Source: Deltaproteobacteria bacterium RIFOXYA12_FULL_61_11
Lineage (GTDB): Bacteria > Bdellovibrionota_F > JAHFAK01 > YA12-FULL-61-11
Length of the DNA: 8,605 nucleotides
Direction: 5' to 3'
NCBI GenBank assembly: GCA_001799195.1
Contig: MGSU01000034.1
Span: forward strand, 9,730-18,334
Shown piece after piece: positions 408-8,362 of this stretch; the first letter of the stretch is position 1; the number at the start of each line of letters is the position of its first letter. Below the pieces are notes generated by a model, which was not told the origin of the DNA, did no database searches, and worked only from the letters and a program-made list of their open reading frames with translations. The position numbers and the translations under genes are program-made.

Positions 408-812
408 ATGCTCGTGCAGGAACCTCTTTCCACCCGTCGGCCCTCGGTGCTCATCGCCGAACGCGAACGCCTCATCGCCATGGAACTGGCCCACCAACTC
501 GAAGACAGGGGTTACAACGTCTGCGCCATTACCTCGTTCGGGCAAGATGCTCTTTTCCTCGCACAGCAATGCCGCCCCGACCTCTTGGTGCTCGACGTCC
601 TGCTCGGTGACGGCATGTCCGGCCGGGACGTGGCCCGCGCGATCAATACCCAACGCACCACTCCGGTGGTCTTCCTCTCGACCTGGAGCGACCAGCAAAT
701 CGACCACAGCGGCCTCCTGAGCTGTTGGTGGCGCTGTCTCCTCAAGCCTTTCACCGCCGAGGACCTCGCCGCCAGTCTGAACGAGCTCACCCTCGGAGGA
801 AATTCCACTTAG
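408..812 (+). CDS. Single-domain response regulator (receiver domain only)
   Basis: The 134-residue protein is essentially one CheY-like receiver domain without an output domain, so it probably acts by phosphorylation-dependent protein contact. The phospho-acceptor is D63 in LLVLDVLLGDGMSG, the switch Ser/Thr is S91 (or T92) in VVFLSTWS, and the conserved lysine is K113 in LLKPF. The acidic metal-binding pair, usually E-D or D-D after β1, reads E18-R19 (VLIAERE), so the second acid is replaced by arginine; Mg2+ binding or phosphorylation may be altered. The ATG at 408 was chosen because the frame upstream (from 249) runs through the repeat element with no family resemblance. No histidine kinase gene is adjacent, so the partner is unknown. 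The gene ends convergently with the MazG-like gene, overlapping it by 4 bp (809-812). Confidence 0.85.
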   Translation: MLVQEPLSTRRPSVLIAERERLIAMELAHQLEDRGYNVCAITSFGQDALFLAQQCRPDLLVLDVLLGDGMSGRDVARAINTQRTTPVVFLSTWSDQQIDHSGLLSCWWRCLLKPFTAEDLAASLNELTLGGNST

Positions 813-1162
813 TCTTCGAACTCGTTGTATTTCTTTGACGATCCATAGGCCTTCTCTACCGGGTACTTCCGCTCGTTGAGCTCCAGTTTTCGGAAGGCGC
901 ACTCGAGGGGGTCCAGACCGAGGCCGTGGCAGAAGTTGAACAGGTGGAGGACGATGTCGCCGACCTCCTCCCCGATGCGCGCCACGAGTTCCGGTGAGGG
1001 GCAGCGGCTCTCTTCTTCCTTCTGCCACATGAACAGTTCGAGAAGCTCATTGGCCTCGACCGAGAGTCCGATCGCCAGGTTCTTCGGCGCGTGGAATTGA
1101 TCCCAGTTCCTGGCCTCCACGAAGGCGCGGAGTTTCCGGTCGAGTTCCTTCAGGCGTTCCAT
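809..1162 (-). CDS. MazG-like nucleotide pyrophosphohydrolase
   Basis: The 117-residue protein matches the small single-domain all-α NTP pyrophosphatases (MazG-like/RS21-C6 type), which hydrolyse (d)NTPs to (d)NMP and PPi and are thought to sanitise nucleotide pools. The N-terminus has the typical W20-DQFHAPKNLA run. The Mg2+-binding motif E-x2-E...E-x2-D is present as E36/E39 (SVEANELLE) and E66/D69 (GEEVGDIVLHLF). The C-terminus has the family's KYPVEKAYGSSKKYNEF signature. Length is normal for a stand-alone domain, shorter than two-domain E. coli MazG. GGAGG (1170-1174, - strand) lies 7 nt before the ATG. It is the last gene of the - strand cluster, 61 bp after the putative peptidase. Substrate preference (dCTP or broader) cannot be read from the sequence. 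Confidence 0.9.
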   Translation of the reverse strand: MERLKELDRKLRAFVEARNWDQFHAPKNLAIGLSVEANELLELFMWQKEEESRCPSPELVARIGEEVGDIVLHLFNFCHGLGLDPLECAFRKLELNERKYPVEKAYGSSKKYNEFED

Positions 1163-1223: not shown

Positions 1224-3614
1224 TCAGCGCCTCACGAGCACGGTGGCTCGGGCTTCGAAGAGCTCTGCGGGCGGGTTGTGCAAGGTGGTCAGCACGAACG
1301 TACCGCGCAGGGATTGCACTGACTGGACCGTTCCCTCGACCGTCCGCAGGAAGAGCTGTCCCGCCTCTTCGGTCACGACCGTCACGGCGCGGCCGACCTC
1401 GCGATCGAGAACCTCGACCTTCTCGTGCCGCGCCTCGGGCTTCAGCACGAAAAGGTTTCCCTGAGCATCGAGAGCATAGTGCGAGGTCCTGAAACGCCAC
1501 CCACCCTCGGGAAGCTCATAGGGATCGGGCCGGGTGGTCTGGTGCTCGTCGAGAAAATACATCCCTCCCGAGGAGGTCCGCACGAAGACGTAATGTCCCT
1601 CCCGTCCCGGCAACTCGAGCGTCGAGGACTCGACGATGCTCTCCCCGCGAGGAAGCTCGAACACGCTCAGGTCGAGCCTCGGTTGTCCGCTTTCGACCTC
1701 CCGGAGGTAGCGCAGGGAACGCCCGTGGTACGGCAGGAACATCGGGATCGCCTCGAACCTCGTCTGCTCGGAGGTCACCGCGAATATGCCGCGCTGATGA
1801 GCGTCCGGCTTCCGGCCTTTGACAATCGCGGCGCCGAGCAACACCGAGTGCGTGTCCTCCTCGGGAACCTCGAGGTCTCCCTCCACGGGTTGGAAGGTCT
1901 CGCCCTGATCATTCCACAGATAGTAGAGGCCGTCCTCGGTCTTCCCGTAACTGCGGCCGTCAAAGGAACCGATCTGGACGAACCGCACGCCCTCGGGTGA
2001 CTGCCGCTTGCTGACGAGGGTCTCGGACGTGGTGTCGGTCGTGCGATAGTAATAGAGGCGTCCTAGCTCGTCGAGGGCATAGCGATACGCGTCCTTGACC
2101 GTGTTGGAGATGTAGACGAACCGCCGCCCTTCCGGCGGCACCATGGCCGAACGCAGCCCTGCACCGTCCTTGCCGACGTAGTAGATACGGCCGTCGGAAC
2201 CGAGGCCGAACAGGGTCTTGTCCATCATCCTGATCTGCACCAGTTCGACTCCGGGCGGAACGACAAAATTGGCCGTGCTGTAGTAGGTCCTGCCCTGTTC
2301 ATCCTGCGCGGTGACGAGATGCGGTTTCTCCTTCTGCTGTTCCCACTGCCCGAGCCTGACGGAACGGGGAGCGACGAAGCGGTTCTCGTCCTCGAAGAAC
2401 CCCCGGAAGACGAAGTTCGGCGTGGTGTCCGTCGGACGATGCTTGTTCACCTCGACATTGATGGTGTGGGCATCGGCCGCGGCGAGGAGCTGCTCGAGCA
2501 GCTCGGTGGTCCGTGGGACGAAATCGGCAAAATACGCGATGTCGGCAGTCCCTGCCGCGTCCATGGTCCGGCCGGTCTTGCCCTTCTTCCTGGCCTCGGC
2601 CAGGATCGGCGCCGCATACTTGGAAAAACTGTCGCAACTCTCCAGCACGAGCAGGGCATAGTGTTGCCCCCCGAGAGGTGCCCTGCGTTCGAGGTCCTTT
2701 TGGTCGTTCAGGCCGAGTTGAAGATGGAGGTCCTCGAACTCCTCCGAGAACTTGTACTTCCCGCTCTGGTAATTGGAGTGCCCGTGGAACATGGTCAGGT
2801 CCGCGTTGGCGAGGCCCATGGCGAAGTTGGCCAAGTTGCGTTGCCCGTGGAGCTTCTTGCTGCCCGTGGCCGTGGTGACCACCCGGGCGAGGAGGGGAAC
2901 CCCCTGGAACGAGAACTCCTTCCAGAACCAACGGGGATTCTCGGTGCCGGGATAGGCGGTGAAACCGAGCTGGTCCCGGAGGGCCGTGCGCAGGGCATCC
3001 ATGTAGGCCCCCGATTGGTTGTCCAGCGTTCCGCCGGAAATCGCCACATCGAAATACCCGTCCATGAACATCAAGGCATAATAGGGCGTCTGGTCGGGGA
3101 CCTTGTTGGTCCCGAAGGAGAATGAGAGCTTGGTGCGCAAGTGGGTGAGCCGCGCCAGGTGGGGGTGACTGTCGAAGAGCTCTTGCTTGAGCGCCGGGGC
3201 CTCGGGCACTTCTGCCAGGACCCGTTCGTGCAACTCGCTGAGGACATAGTACGGGGTCGGCAAGGACCAGTACAGCAGCAGGACCGTTCCCGCCAGAGCG
3301 CGCAGGGCAACCGGATCCTTGGCCGCAGTGAAACGCTCGGCGAGGTCGCCGACGTAATCGGCCAACTCCAGGACCGCGACGAAGCCCTTCTGCTCGTCAT
3401 AGCGGCTGCCGAACCCCCCGAGATAGCCGGTCTCGTCCTTCACGAAGGTCTCGTAGAGGCCGTGCGGCCAGCGATAGAGCAGCCGACCGTCCGGCAAGGT
3501 CCGAAAATACTCCCGGCCGAGGCGAACCGTCTGGTTTTTGCTCGGCAAGGCATCGAGCTGCAAGGGGGCGAGCAACGTCAAGACGCTGAGGGCGAGGAGC
3601 GCACAACGGATCAT
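1224..3614 (-). CDS. Exported putative clan CD-like (caspase/gingipain-type) cysteine peptidase with β-propeller-like repeats
   Basis: This 796-residue protein begins with a Sec-type signal peptide (hydrophobic core about residues 5-20, likely cleavage after LDA near residue 22). A middle domain (about 160-410) contains a strand followed by M275-FHGHSN (H277, G278, H279) and, 50 residues on, LLVLESC (C327) DSF. The order 'hydrophobic strand-H-G ... hydrophobic strand-x-x-C' and this spacing resemble the His/Cys dyad of clan CD peptidases (caspases, gingipains, separases). A following strand, GTADIAYFADF (355-365), also fits that fold. From about 435 to 796 there are eight turns of the form G-x-[LIM]-[YF] (near 441, 475, 518, 562, 609, 683, 719 and 752), several preceded by P-x-G and spaced about 35-75 residues, suggesting a β-propeller. 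The start at 3614 has CGGAGGT (- strand) 4 nt upstream. The location would be periplasm, surface or outside. The peptidase call is inference from motif layout; an inactive or unrelated α/β fold is possible. Confidence 0.55.
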   Translation of the reverse strand: MIRCALLALSVLTLLAPLQLDALPSKNQTVRLGREYFRTLPDGRLLYRWPHGLYETFVKDETGYLGGFGSRYDEQKGFVAVLELADYVGDLAERFTAAKDPVALRALAGTVLLLYWSLPTPYYVLSELHERVLAEVPEAPALKQELFDSHPHLARLTHLRTKLSFSFGTNKVPDQTPYYALMFMDGYFDVAISGGTLDNQSGAYMDALRTALRDQLGFTAYPGTENPRWFWKEFSFQGVPLLARVVTTATGSKKLHGQRNLANFAMGLANADLTMFHGHSNYQSGKYKFSEEFEDLHLQLGLNDQKDLERRAPLGGQHYALLVLESCDSFSKYAAPILAEARKKGKTGRTMDAAGTADIAYFADFVPRTTELLEQLLAAADAHTINVEVNKHRPTDTTPNFVFRGFFEDENRFVAPRSVRLGQWEQQKEKPHLVTAQDEQGRTYYSTANFVVPPGVELVQIRMMDKTLFGLGSDGRIYYVGKDGAGLRSAMVPPEGRRFVYISNTVKDAYRYALDELGRLYYYRTTDTTSETLVSKRQSPEGVRFVQIGSFDGRSYGKTEDGLYYLWNDQGETFQPVEGDLEVPEEDTHSVLLGAAIVKGRKPDAHQRGIFAVTSEQTRFEAIPMFLPYHGRSLRYLREVESGQPRLDLSVFELPRGESIVESSTLELPGREGHYVFVRTSSGGMYFLDEHQTTRPDPYELPEGGWRFRTSHYALDAQGNLFVLKPEARHEKVEVLDREVGRAVTVVTEEAGQLFLRTVEGTVQSVQSLRGTFVLTTLHNPPAELFEARATVLVRR

Positions 3615-3634: not shown

Positions 3635-3650
3635 TGGTCTTTCGAGACCA
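3635..3650. other. Hairpin in the pepF-putative peptidase intergenic gap
   Basis: TGGTCT-TTCG-AGACCA is a perfect 6-bp inverted repeat with a 4-nt loop, about 20 bp before the ATG of the putative peptidase gene. In - strand RNA the loop reads CGAA; on the + strand it is UUCG. There is no U-run, so it probably does not stop transcription. It may set the relative expression of the two genes or protect mRNA. Confidence 0.35.
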
Positions 3651-3672: not shown

Positions 3673-5499
3673 TCAAGCACGCTTTCGGTCATCCGCAGTC
3701 AGCCGTTCGAACTCGCCGAGCAGCCGGGAGAATCTCGCCACCGTGTTCTCGACCGGCCTCGGGGTCGTCATGTCGACCCCGGCCGCCTTGAGGATGGCGA
3801 TGGGGTGATCCGAACCGCCCGCGGAGAGGAACCCCAGGATCTTGCCGCGCGTGGCCGCCTGGTCGTGTTCCAGCAGGGCAAAGAGGTCGTGGGCTGCCGA
3901 GATCGAGGTAGCGTACTTGAAGACGTAGAAATCGTAATAGAAGTGCGGAATACGCATCCAGCCCATCTTCACGTCGTCGTCGAGCACGAAATCCGGGCCG
4001 AAATATTTGGTGAGCCCGCGGCCCCACAGGTCGTCGAGGTATTCGTGGTCGAGGGCCTCGCCGGCCTCGGCCCGTTCGTGTACCGCCAATTCGAATTCGC
4101 TGTACATGGTTTGGAAGTACAACGTCTTGACGATGTTGGAGAGATAGCTGTCGAGGTACGAAAGCTTCTCGCCCGGGTCAGAGGTATGGTCGATGAGATG
4201 GTTCACCAGCAAGGTCTCGTCGAGCGTCGAGGCGACCTCGGCACAGAAGATGTCATACCCCGCATTCACATAATGCTGGGCCTTATTGCTGAAGTACGAA
4301 TGCAACGAATGCCCCAGCTCGTGGGCCAGGGTGCACAGGTCCTCGAACTCATCTTGGTAATTGAGCAGGATATAGGGCACGGTGTCGTAACAACCCGAGG
4401 AATAGGCCCCACTGCGCTTGCCCTTGTTCGGGAAGACGTCGATCCAGCCCTCTTCGGGAGAAAGGGCCACCTCGAGCGCCGCCACGTATTCCTGGCCGAG
4501 CACTCCCAGAGCCGCCACGAGATGCCCACGGGCCTGGTCGTAAGGGAACCTCGCCTCGGGTCTCTGCGAGAGCGGTGCATAGAGGTCGTGCCAGTGAACC
4601 CCGTCGGAGAGGCTCAGCAACTCGCGACGCAGGTGGACGAAACGGTGCAGGGGTTCGAGGTTTGCCCCTACCGTGCGGATCAGGCCGTGGAACACTTCGG
4701 CCGGGATCGCCGCGGAGAAGAGCGAGGCCTCGAGACAGCTCGGATACCGGTGTACTTCCTGGTGGAACTGGTGCGCCTTGACCTGGGCCGAGAGCGTGTA
4801 GGTCAGGGTATTGCGGATGCGCCCGAAGGACGCCAGATAGCGCCGCAACCAGCGCTCGCGCAGCGTACGATCGGGATGGCGCAAGGCCACGGTGTAACGG
4901 GCGTGAGACACCTCGTGCTCCGTCCCCTGCTCGTCGACGAGCGGTTCGAAGCTCTGATCCGCATCATGGGCCACGTTGTAGATGTTGCCCGGAGCCATGG
5001 TCAGCTCCGCGGCCATGGCCGCTATCCGTTCTTCCTGCTGCGACAGGGTGTGCGGCCGGGCGCGTTGGATGTCGAGCAACGAGAACCGGTAGGGAGCGAG
5101 GCCGGGGGTGGCGGCCAACCAGGTCCCGAGCACCTCGGGCTCGAGGGCCAGGATCTCGGGGTTGAGGAAGGACAGGGTTTGTTCGAGCCTGGCGTGCAAC
5201 CCCTGCGAGCGGCCCTCGAGGGCTTGGTACCGGGTCACCCTGGCGTCCCCGTCGTGCCGCATGTGCGCGTAATTGTGCAGCTTCTCGACCTCCCGCCCCA
5301 CCTCGGTCATGAGGTCGAGGAAGGCGAGCAGGGTAGCGGCGTTCTCGGCCAAGCGCCCGCGATAGGCCTCCAGCTCTGGCAGCCGGTCCTCGATCGTCCC
5401 GAAGGCCCGCTCCCAGGCCTCGTCGTCCGCGTAGATGCGCTCCAGCTTCCACTGGTAACGCGGGTCGAGTTCCTTCCGTTCCCTGGTCGTCTGGCTCAT
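3673..5499 (-). CDS. pepF: Oligoendopeptidase F-like M3 family zinc metallopeptidase
   Basis: The 608-residue protein is a full-length M3B peptidase, which cleaves short cytosolic oligopeptides. The zinc site is H393-E394-L-G-H397 in TLAHELGHSLHSYF, and the third ligand is E421 in CAEVASTLDE, 24 residues after the second His, the usual M3 spacing. Downstream PHFYYDFYVFKYA (518-530) carries the conserved His/Tyr substrate-binding residues, and NKGKRSGAYSSGCYDTVPYILLNY (358-381) is the typical strand region before the active site. No signal peptide is present. The start at 5499 (MSQTTRE...) is preferred over an ATG 36 bp upstream, because AGGAGGT (5506-5512, - strand) sits 6 nt before it and the extra 12 residues look unlike the family. 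It is the first gene of the - strand cluster, 58 bp before the putative exported peptidase. Confidence 0.93.
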   Translation of the reverse strand: MSQTTRERKELDPRYQWKLERIYADDEAWERAFGTIEDRLPELEAYRGRLAENAATLLAFLDLMTEVGREVEKLHNYAHMRHDGDARVTRYQALEGRSQGLHARLEQTLSFLNPEILALEPEVLGTWLAATPGLAPYRFSLLDIQRARPHTLSQQEERIAAMAAELTMAPGNIYNVAHDADQSFEPLVDEQGTEHEVSHARYTVALRHPDRTLRERWLRRYLASFGRIRNTLTYTLSAQVKAHQFHQEVHRYPSCLEASLFSAAIPAEVFHGLIRTVGANLEPLHRFVHLRRELLSLSDGVHWHDLYAPLSQRPEARFPYDQARGHLVAALGVLGQEYVAALEVALSPEEGWIDVFPNKGKRSGAYSSGCYDTVPYILLNYQDEFEDLCTLAHELGHSLHSYFSNKAQHYVNAGYDIFCAEVASTLDETLLVNHLIDHTSDPGEKLSYLDSYLSNIVKTLYFQTMYSEFELAVHERAEAGEALDHEYLDDLWGRGLTKYFGPDFVLDDDVKMGWMRIPHFYYDFYVFKYATSISAAHDLFALLEHDQAATRGKILGFLSAGGSDHPIAILKAAGVDMTTPRPVENTVARFSRLLGEFERLTADDRKRA

Positions 5500-5505
5500 G
5501 CGGGG

Positions 5506-5512
5506 ACCTCCT
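5506..5512 (-). promoter_or_regulatory. Strong Shine-Dalgarno site deciding the pepF start
   Basis: Read on the - strand, AGGAGGT is followed by a 6-nt spacer and the ATG at 5499-5497. An ideal match and spacing decide between this start and the ATG at 5535, which would place the site inside the coding region. Confidence 0.8.
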
Positions 5513-5530
5513 GGCACGCTCGCTCCCGGC

Positions 5531-5559
5531 CTCATACCTCAGGCAGGACCAGGGAGCAA
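5531..5559 (-). promoter_or_regulatory. Candidate promoter of the pepF cluster
   Basis: On the - strand, TTGCTC (5559-5554) and TATGAG (5536-5531) are separated by 17 bp and would give a leader of about 25 nt. The -35 match is weak (3/6) and the -10 moderate (4/6). An inverted repeat, GACCAG (5547-5552) / CTGGTC (5565-5570), spans the -35 position and could be an operator. This is inference from spacing only. Confidence 0.3.
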
Positions 5560-5580: not shown

Positions 5581-5759
5581 CTTCAGTCTTGGTTGTGGGG
5601 TAAGGGGTCCTGCCGCCACACCGACGCCGCTGCTTCGTGCGCGTCGCATGGAGGTCGGCCTCCCTGCCGCCACCACCGTTGCTCTCTGCATCCTGCAGCA
5701 ACGGTAGGTCGGCATCCCTGCCGCCACACCGACGCCGCTGATTCGAAAAAAGACTGAGC
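5581..5759. mobile_element. MITE-like intergenic element, copy 2 (enlarged by 54-bp repeats)
   Basis: The left end, CTTCAGTCTT (5581-5590), and the nearby GGTAAGGGGTCCTG (5599-5612) match copy 1 at 192-220. The right end, AAGACTGA (5750-5757), matches the inverted repeat for 8 of 10 positions. The 5-mer CGATC abuts both ends (5576-5580 and 5760-5764), as expected for a 5-bp target duplication. The interior differs from copy 1 and consists of a 54-bp-period repeat. No credible coding region was found in it. It separates the divergent pepF cluster and the lipoprotein gene. It could be a non-autonomous transposable element or a structured intergenic repeat. Confidence 0.55.
5609..5740. repeat. 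54-bp-period tandem repeat (two full units and a partial third) with hairpins
   Basis: The motif CCTGCCGCCAC begins at 5609, 5663 and 5717, exactly 54 bp apart. Units 1 and 3 share 24 identical bases (5609-5632 and 5717-5740). The junctions into units 2 and 3 (5652-5673 and 5706-5727) match at 21 of 22 positions. The unit centres differ in sequence but both can fold: CGACGC (5622-5627) with GCGTCG (5641-5646), and ACCGTTGCT (5675-5683) with AGCAACGGT (5697-5705), each around a 13-nt loop. The regular conserved/variable alternation recalls a CRISPR array, but the 'spacers' are palindromic and one recurs. Confidence 0.75.
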
Positions 5760-5881: not shown

Positions 5882-8362
5882 GTGGGGTTCGGAGTGCTGC
5901 AAAAATCGCTGCAGAAGCTAAGTCCAACGAGGAGTGGGTTCGCGATCTTGCTGCTCTGGCTGGCCCTGCTCGGTTGTCGACTGGAGGAGAACCCGGATCG
6001 CTCCTCGACCGTAGATGGTGAGGAACAAGCCACGAAGGACCCCAGCCTCACCGCAGAGGGTTCTCAGGACCCTCTGCAGGTCGAGGATGGTGGATGGGAG
6101 CAGGTAGAGCAACCGCCCGTAGATTCCTCTGATGCCTCGGACGAGGATCAGGGAGCCGAAAACCCTTTTTCGGGTTCTACCGAGGGAGAGCCGACGGACG
6201 CTGTGGCCCAGGATGGGGAGCTTTCGGAGGACAGCGGTGATCCGGTCTTGAGTGATCTCATCGACAAGGAACTCGTGCCCGCCCCCCTGGTGCAGGTACC
6301 CCAGGAACCGACGAGTGCCTTCGAGGGGTTGGGAAGCTGTGCAGCCTTTGCCGGGCTCGATTCCATTGCCCTGCGCTTCGTTTTCGATACCAATCAGCCC
6401 ATCTCTATAGCCGGGAGCGCATTGCTCGATACTGCCCGGGCAGGGCAAGCGGGGTTGAACCTTTCCGGATACAGTCACCGCTGCAACGGCGACTATTCGA
6501 TGACCTTCGAGGGGGAGCTTGAGGAGGTCGCGCTGGGTTGTGCCTTTTCCTTCGACCTGAACGGTCTGTCTTGCCGCTGTCAGATCCTCGATACGGGCAT
6601 GTCCTGCGGGGAAACGGGACATGCCATTGCCGAGATAGGGGATGGCCGGATCCAGGTCGAGGGAGAGGACTTCTTTCTCTTCGGAACGCATTATTACCCG
6701 CTCTTCTACGAATCGGGGACCAGTTGGTTGATCGAGCTGGCCCGGGATCCGGAGAAAGCGGAGAAACTGGAGGCGGTGAAGCGCGATCTCACCAAGATCC
6801 GGAACCTTACGCTCAACCACGTCACGGTAACCTGGCACAACTTCCGGTATCCCGAGGAACTCCCAGAGTATTGCACGGGGTTGCAGCTGTTCCTGGAGGC
6901 TGCGGAGGAATTCAAGCTAAAGGTCACGCTCCAAACCATCCCCTTCAGCGCCGTCTGGAACCCGAACCCAAAGGGGGCCTGGAAACTCTACGAGGGCAAC
7001 GAGGAAAAACTCGCGAACCTCTTGCAGAGCTGTTATCTCCAGGGCTACCGCCAGCTCATCGGGTACATGCTGGAACAGGAACCCACCTTCGAGCTGGAGG
7101 AACAGGAAATGGATCTCGATAAACGGGTGCGGAACTGGGCCGAGGTCAAGGATGCCTGGGTGAGCTGGGTTGAGGATCGCTACGGAACGACGGAAAATTT
7201 CGCCACGGTGACCGGCGTTGCTTTCACTATGGTCCCGACGGATGGGGTCCTGTGCCCCGAAAGCGATCCCGGGACCGGGGCCGATCCTCTCGTGGCCAAC
7301 TACCGCGCCTTTCTGACCTGGTTCCTGAGCAAGAGGCTGGCGACTTCGGTGTGGGGCCTGAAGGCGCTGGACGACACCAGGATCATCTATTACGAGACGG
7401 GCAAGAGCGGAGGGGACATCCCCTCCGTCTGCCGCTACCTCAACTGGAATCCGCGCTACCTGACAAAGGACGTGGACATGGTCAGCTTCGATTCTTACAA
7501 CCTCCTGGGAGGGCAGAACCGCGTGTACGTCAATGGCAACATCGACGTAAGTTACATGAACGAGGGGTTCTTTCTCTTCTCGTACTTCAAGACGACCCGG
7601 CCCCTGATGATCGGCGAATACGGCTACGATGTCCTTTCCGAAACCCATAGCGAAACGACCAAGTCGCTGACCAATCAGAAACTCGTTTACGAGAAGTTCT
7701 TCTCCCTGGCCAACGAGGCAGGCCTGGCAGGGCTCTCCAACTGGTGGCTGATCGGTCGGGCACTGGTGGAGACCAGGACGAGCGATTTCGGTGTGCTGCG
7801 TGAAGACGACTACACGGGCAGACCGGCGGTCAGCTCGATGAAGGCTTTCGAGCACGTGGACGGGGTCAAGACCTGTAACAAGGCCCTGGTGGTGGACGAA
7901 GACGAGTTCACCAGCGAGACCGCCTTCTACCTGAAGCACCGCGACGACTATCGCCAGAAATGTCCCGTGGGCGGCTTGCCAAAGGTGGTGACCAGGTGCA
8001 GCGGGATCACGTCGAAAACGGATGATTCCGCGAAGTACAAGTGGGCCTGCCAGGGATGCACGGAGAGCCACGGAGCGAACGCGGCGATTTGCTCGGGACA
8101 TTCTCGGCGGTGTGAGTTGAAGTGCTTCAAGTCCGAGATCATGAAGATCGGTGCCGACAGAATCGTCGTCGCCAATACCGGTGAGGGAACCTGGAAAGAC
8201 AATGTGAAGTTGAAGGTCGGGACGCAATTCTTCGATCTTCCCTCCGAGGTCGAGATGAACGGCAAAGTCATCATCCAAGGCCACGAGATGGAGAGCGCGA
8301 GGGGCGAGGTGGTCATGGTGCTCGACGACAGGGAATTCGGAGAGCGGGGCGAGAAACCCTGA
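5882..8362 (+). CDS. Surface lipoprotein with clan GH-A glycoside-hydrolase-like domain and Cys-rich tail
   Basis: The 826-residue protein starts at GTG 5882: an in-frame TGA at 5879-5881 excludes earlier starts, AGGTG (5869-5873) lies 8 nt upstream, and GTG 5894 is an alternative. A hydrophobic stretch (residues 19-31) ends in the lipobox LLGC (C32), marking a lipoprotein. Residues about 33-130 are an acidic, Ser/Pro-rich linker. A small domain (150-250) holds six cysteines. A (β/α)8-like domain follows (about 255-660): FFLFGTHYYPLFYE resembles β1, E400 in IGYMLEQEP sits where the acid/base of the usual 'NEP' motif lies, and E579 in RPLMIGEYGYD fits the β7 nucleophile. LSNWWLIGRA fits β8. 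The family (GH5, GH72, GH2-like?) and substrate are unknown. Residues 694-748 form a cysteine cluster, and 750-826 may be an Ig-like β-domain (VVANTGEGTW). It probably acts on a polysaccharide at the cell surface. Confidence 0.7.
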   Translation: MGFGVLQKSLQKLSPTRSGFAILLLWLALLGCRLEENPDRSSTVDGEEQATKDPSLTAEGSQDPLQVEDGGWEQVEQPPVDSSDASDEDQGAENPFSGSTEGEPTDAVAQDGELSEDSGDPVLSDLIDKELVPAPLVQVPQEPTSAFEGLGSCAAFAGLDSIALRFVFDTNQPISIAGSALLDTARAGQAGLNLSGYSHRCNGDYSMTFEGELEEVALGCAFSFDLNGLSCRCQILDTGMSCGETGHAIAEIGDGRIQVEGEDFFLFGTHYYPLFYESGTSWLIELARDPEKAEKLEAVKRDLTKIRNLTLNHVTVTWHNFRYPEELPEYCTGLQLFLEAAEEFKLKVTLQTIPFSAVWNPNPKGAWKLYEGNEEKLANLLQSCYLQGYRQLIGYMLEQEPTFELEEQEMDLDKRVRNWAEVKDAWVSWVEDRYGTTENFATVTGVAFTMVPTDGVLCPESDPGTGADPLVANYRAFLTWFLSKRLATSVWGLKALDDTRIIYYETGKSGGDIPSVCRYLNWNPRYLTKDVDMVSFDSYNLLGGQNRVYVNGNIDVSYMNEGFFLFSYFKTTRPLMIGEYGYDVLSETHSETTKSLTNQKLVYEKFFSLANEAGLAGLSNWWLIGRALVETRTSDFGVLREDDYTGRPAVSSMKAFEHVDGVKTCNKALVVDEDEFTSETAFYLKHRDDYRQKCPVGGLPKVVTRCSGITSKTDDSAKYKWACQGCTESHGANAAICSGHSRRCELKCFKSEIMKIGADRIVVANTGEGTWKDNVKLKVGTQFFDLPSEVEMNGKVIIQGHEMESARGEVVMVLDDREFGERGEKP

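Follow-up and report, generated by a model that had tools for sequence, protein, structure and literature searches.

The window, by which we mean the whole 8,605-nucleotide stretch of DNA analysed here, carries on its minus strand a gene for a 796-residue protein with the following features and neighbours:

1224..3614, minus strand: whole gene for an exported clan-CD-like protein with a C-terminal repeat domain; open reading frame from 3614 (ATG) to 1224 (TGA), 796 residues
3543..3614, minus strand: signal peptide, residues 1 to about 24, from inspection of the sequence; no lipobox
3120..3542, minus strand: N-terminal region, residues 25-165; largely helical on inspection of the sequence
2379..3119, minus strand: core clan-CD-like domain, residues 166-412, from the family profile and profile-profile comparison
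2778..2780, minus strand: H279, predicted catalytic histidine, in FHGHSNY; histidine in all 38 relatives that span the position, aligned with the catalytic His of peptidase families C25 and C14
2634..2636, minus strand: C327, predicted catalytic cysteine, in LLVLESCDSF; cysteine in 39/39 relatives, aligned with the catalytic Cys of C25 and C14
1305..2315, minus strand: probable beta-propeller, residues 434-770, with 7-8 repeats about 33-49 residues apart where motifs adjoin
3673..5535, minus strand: pepF (oligoendopeptidase F), TIGR00181 match above cut-off, 58 nt upstream of the 796-residue gene
809..1162, minus strand: gene for a MazG-like protein, PF12643 match above cut-off, 61 nt downstream of the 796-residue gene

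The 796-residue frame is a real gene. GGAGG lies immediately 5' of its ATG, and its GC content by codon position is 0.64/0.42/0.83, against 0.66/0.42/0.84 in the adjoining pepF. Its placement between a PepF and a MazG-like enzyme, made in the original prediction from the translations, is borne out by the two family matches. Given the spacing to both neighbours and the shared strand, co-transcription is possible, and pepF and the 796-residue gene may form an operon. The gap that separates the pepF stop codon from the start of the 796-residue gene contains a perfect 6-bp hairpin (TGGTCT CGAA AGACCA, window 3635-3650) without a T run, which could be regulatory. The intergenic DNA upstream of pepF (window 5609-5745) contains a near-identical 29-nt direct repeat (5609-5637 and 5717-5745) as well as a 22-nt repeat, and this region had no match in Rfam. 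On the plus strand, window 5882-8362 encodes an 826-residue protein that looks exported or lipoprotein-like; its sole family match is a weak one to glycoside hydrolase 42 (E 0.021, below cut-off).

The protein starts with what appears by inspection to be a typical export signal, MIRCALLALSVLTLLAPLQLDALPS, as originally proposed. A lipobox was looked for in the window protein and none was seen; many of its relatives have one. Residues 25-165, which follow, had no family match in Pfam or NCBIfam and no counterpart was identified for them in the relatives; they are possibly a prodomain.

Remote relatives and their conserved residues

Searched alone, the window protein had no match in Pfam at E 10 (C25, C14 and propeller families included), none in NCBIfam or PADLOC at E 1 and no meaningful match among PDB sequences. 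Direct search of 386 sampled genomes and scans of genome contigs found no relative, nor, at the sensitivity used, did searches of plasmids, phages and viral contigs. Random decoy rows, which are no homologues, were put into six alignments solely to steer search motifs. The weak direct-search matches that we examined were due to chance: the antisense of a phosphorylase-like gene, a lytic transglycosylase and a PBP. The lack of close relatives can be ascribed to the set searched, in which the window's phylum is represented by two genomes only. More remote relatives were reached through residues 150-410, which were searched over 195 genomes of another phylum and gave three true relatives; the alignment made from these three served as the profile for a second round. 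With this profile, members were found in 23 of the 195 genomes and, across bacteria, in 8 of the 386 sampled genomes, the window's own included. The resulting family alignment contains 39 full frames and covers remote relatives of residues 166-412. When the window protein was left out of the profile, it scored 65.3 bits; the highest of 1000 shuffles reached 8.7. In the family tree it forms a long branch with no firm placement, and its loop does not contain the GPDFDD stretch seen in the closest relatives.

Two residues stand out as the most conserved of the family. The histidine corresponding to H279 is kept in all 38 members whose sequence extends over this column (L049, a fragment, lacks it), and the cysteine corresponding to C327 in all 39; the family motifs around them are [DE]hhh[YF]xGH[SAG] and YQhhhhxxCx[ST], and the window protein carries both the GH[SAG] and the C. 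The earlier reading had pointed to an HGH motif and a cysteine 50 residues further on, each after a hydrophobic strand. Both are present: HGH occupies residues 277-279, within LTMFHGHSNY; C327, part of YALLVLESCDSF, follows H277 by 50 residues and H279 by 48, and H279 and C327 each come after a hydrophobic, strand-like segment. The only other cysteine of the protein is C4 in the signal, which makes C327 the sole cysteine of the mature form. The conservation expected of H277/H279 and C327 holds for H279 and C327 but not for H277, at which the family varies. Because H277 is not conserved, we correct the predicted dyad to H279/C327 and leave H277 out of it. An AlphaFold2 model of the whole protein from the one sequence reached a pLDDT of 34.5 and gave no usable structure of the core.

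Relation to the clan CD families

We compared a 38-sequence family profile with profiles of C25, C14 and CHAT by hhalign, taking the comparison sequences from the same genomes as the family. The family scored 37.9 against C25 (P 1.5e-4), whereas 200 column-shuffled controls reached at most 18.9 and reversed C25 gave 17.0. Against C14 it scored 38.8 (P 5.4e-5), and 60 column-shuffled controls reached at most 15.3. As a yardstick, C25 against C14 scored 39.9 (P 7e-5), so that, judged by these profiles, the family is as close to C25 and to C14 as C25 is to C14. The single hhalign probabilities are moderate (42-67%). Both alignments put H279 on the catalytic histidine and C327 on the catalytic cysteine. 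The CHAT domain (PF12770), which belongs to the same clan, gave a weak profile match of 24.6, far weaker than those of the family to C25 and C14.

The likeness to the gingipains of C25 (PF01364) extends to secretion and to the GH loop and the cysteine after hydrophobic strands, which align at the catalytic positions. Three members match PF01364 directly but weakly (best E 3.9e-4), and the C25 matches examined singly, at 12.8 and 13.2 bits, stay below the cut-off of 23 bits. Likewise, the caspases, meta- and orthocaspases of C14 (PF00656) have their catalytic His and Cys in register with the family, but the family motifs YxGH[SAG]..G and [GS]Cx[ST][FY]xY are not the typical p20 motifs; PF00656 matched one relative only (E 0.22, 11.6 bits against a cut-off of 21.4 bits). 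In view of the profile-profile scores, and since neither family's cut-off was reached in the cases checked, the family is best read as a third, separate clan CD family beside C25 and C14 and a member of neither. The clan CD layout proposed for the window protein is thus supported, with the histidine and cysteine in register with both families at scores far above the shuffles, but the protein is neither a C14 caspase nor a C25 gingipain. HMM comparison reveals the link when the family profile is used, where the single protein had no Pfam match. The family is absent from Pfam and NCBIfam as used here, and the literature searched held no description of it, which is weak evidence of absence.

The clan and its families have been reviewed (PMC4357240). 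The window's own genome also encodes four gingipain-type C25 proteins above cut-off (L074, L081, L087 and L093) and one or two caspase-type C14 matches, from which exported clan CD proteins appear to be a theme of this organism.

The C-terminal repeats

About eight repeats had been counted in the tail, and we find 7-8 weak ones, with motif starts near residues 440, 474, 516, 560, 683, 717 and 750 and a degenerate one near 609. Since the regular expression of the first motif search was written after seeing the sequence, we count only self-alignment as evidence of repetition. Residues 434-796 aligned with themselves at a best score of 78, compared with a maximum of 68 in 200 shuffles, and the core gave no excess over its shuffles.

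A single-sequence model of residues 427-796 has a mean pLDDT of 41.7, its better part being residues 436-576 (block means mostly 55-70). Among its top 50 rows this low-confidence model matches nothing but propellers, and it does so only over about residues 428-580; the matches comprise WD40 (WDR5), RCC1 (HERC2 RCC1-like), BamB and designed propellers. The DG.[LI]YY... and PxG..F..I repeats of the tail also resemble those of RCC1/WD40-type propellers, but even at E 10 the window protein has no match to a propeller family of Pfam. A search of 485 genomes gave no confident homologue for the tail. Taken together, the repeats above all shuffles and the propeller-only model matches support the propeller reading, and the tail is probably a propeller-shaped binding domain, with the number of blades left unproven.

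Proposed function and novelty

We consider it fairly likely, from comparison of sequences and profiles, that the gene encodes an exported protein in which a clan CD cysteine peptidase domain of an unlisted family is followed by a propeller-like repeat domain. H279 and C327, each ending a hydrophobic strand, would form a His-Cys dyad, which may act outside the cytoplasm to cleave peptide bonds. The propeller at the C-terminus may hold a substrate or a cell-surface partner. In the relatives, this holding part could be played by other domains: among the 39 members, Pfam finds PG_binding_1 in 14, PPC in 6 and the P-domain in 4. Such domains are common in secreted proteases or cell-wall proteins. 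Together with the lipoboxes of several relatives, they fit exported, surface-bound proteins.

Instead of a general endopeptidase, the same fold could provide a transpeptidase or a sortase, or could process itself in the manner of PorU or the CPD domains and in this way anchor or release the propeller. Autoprocessing domains are known within the clan (PMC4357240), as is the sortase PorU, which belongs to type IX secretion (PMC8545088), and either role would be compatible with attached binding domains. No secretion or anchoring system was identified beside the gene, however, and the relatives have no cargo or tail in common; we regard this alternative as rather unlikely. The clan CD domain might also have lost catalysis and serve as a scaffold for binding; pseudo-enzymes occur among the caspase homologues of bacteria (PMC6426788), and the window protein is itself divergent. 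Yet the two predicted catalytic residues are precisely those that the family conserves best and that even this divergent member has kept, which makes a dead domain quite improbable. A fortuitous resemblance of the GH and C motifs to clan CD, in an alpha/beta enzyme of other descent, is only a slight possibility: the homology of the core to clan CD rests on profiles, but in the independent comparisons with C25 and with C14 both residues fall on the catalytic pair, at scores far above those of the shuffled and reversed controls.

If the core is indeed a clan CD peptidase domain as we propose, the clan would gain a family, in exported bacterial proteins, that current domain libraries have missed, and the set of caspase and gingipain relatives acting outside the cell would widen, with H279 and C327 as two residues offered for testing. 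The picture of how a clan CD enzyme works would be unchanged. The combination had been thought to be an undescribed architecture, and this holds within the family sampled, where the propeller-like repeats occur in the window protein only and no propeller family of Pfam matches any of the 39 members. Elsewhere, fusions of metacaspases to WD40 propellers are common; among the prokaryotic caspase homologues, 10.9% have WD40 repeats and 1.6% peptidoglycan-binding domains, and homologues with a predicted extracellular location have been described (PMC3501461). Since the principle of a caspase joined to a propeller and extracellular caspase homologues were already known, the novelty would lie in the family and in this particular combination. 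In our judgement there is an even chance that the family is an unlisted, exported clan CD family spread across several bacterial lineages with varied wall- or surface-binding fusions, of which the window protein is the sole known propeller form.

Three members (L064:1192-2277:+, L066:403-2259:- and L065:916-1947:+) make up a deep branch of the family with the motifs YxGHSRxGxGP and FFSCxS, and two of them have C-terminal hydrophobic segments that look membrane-spanning.
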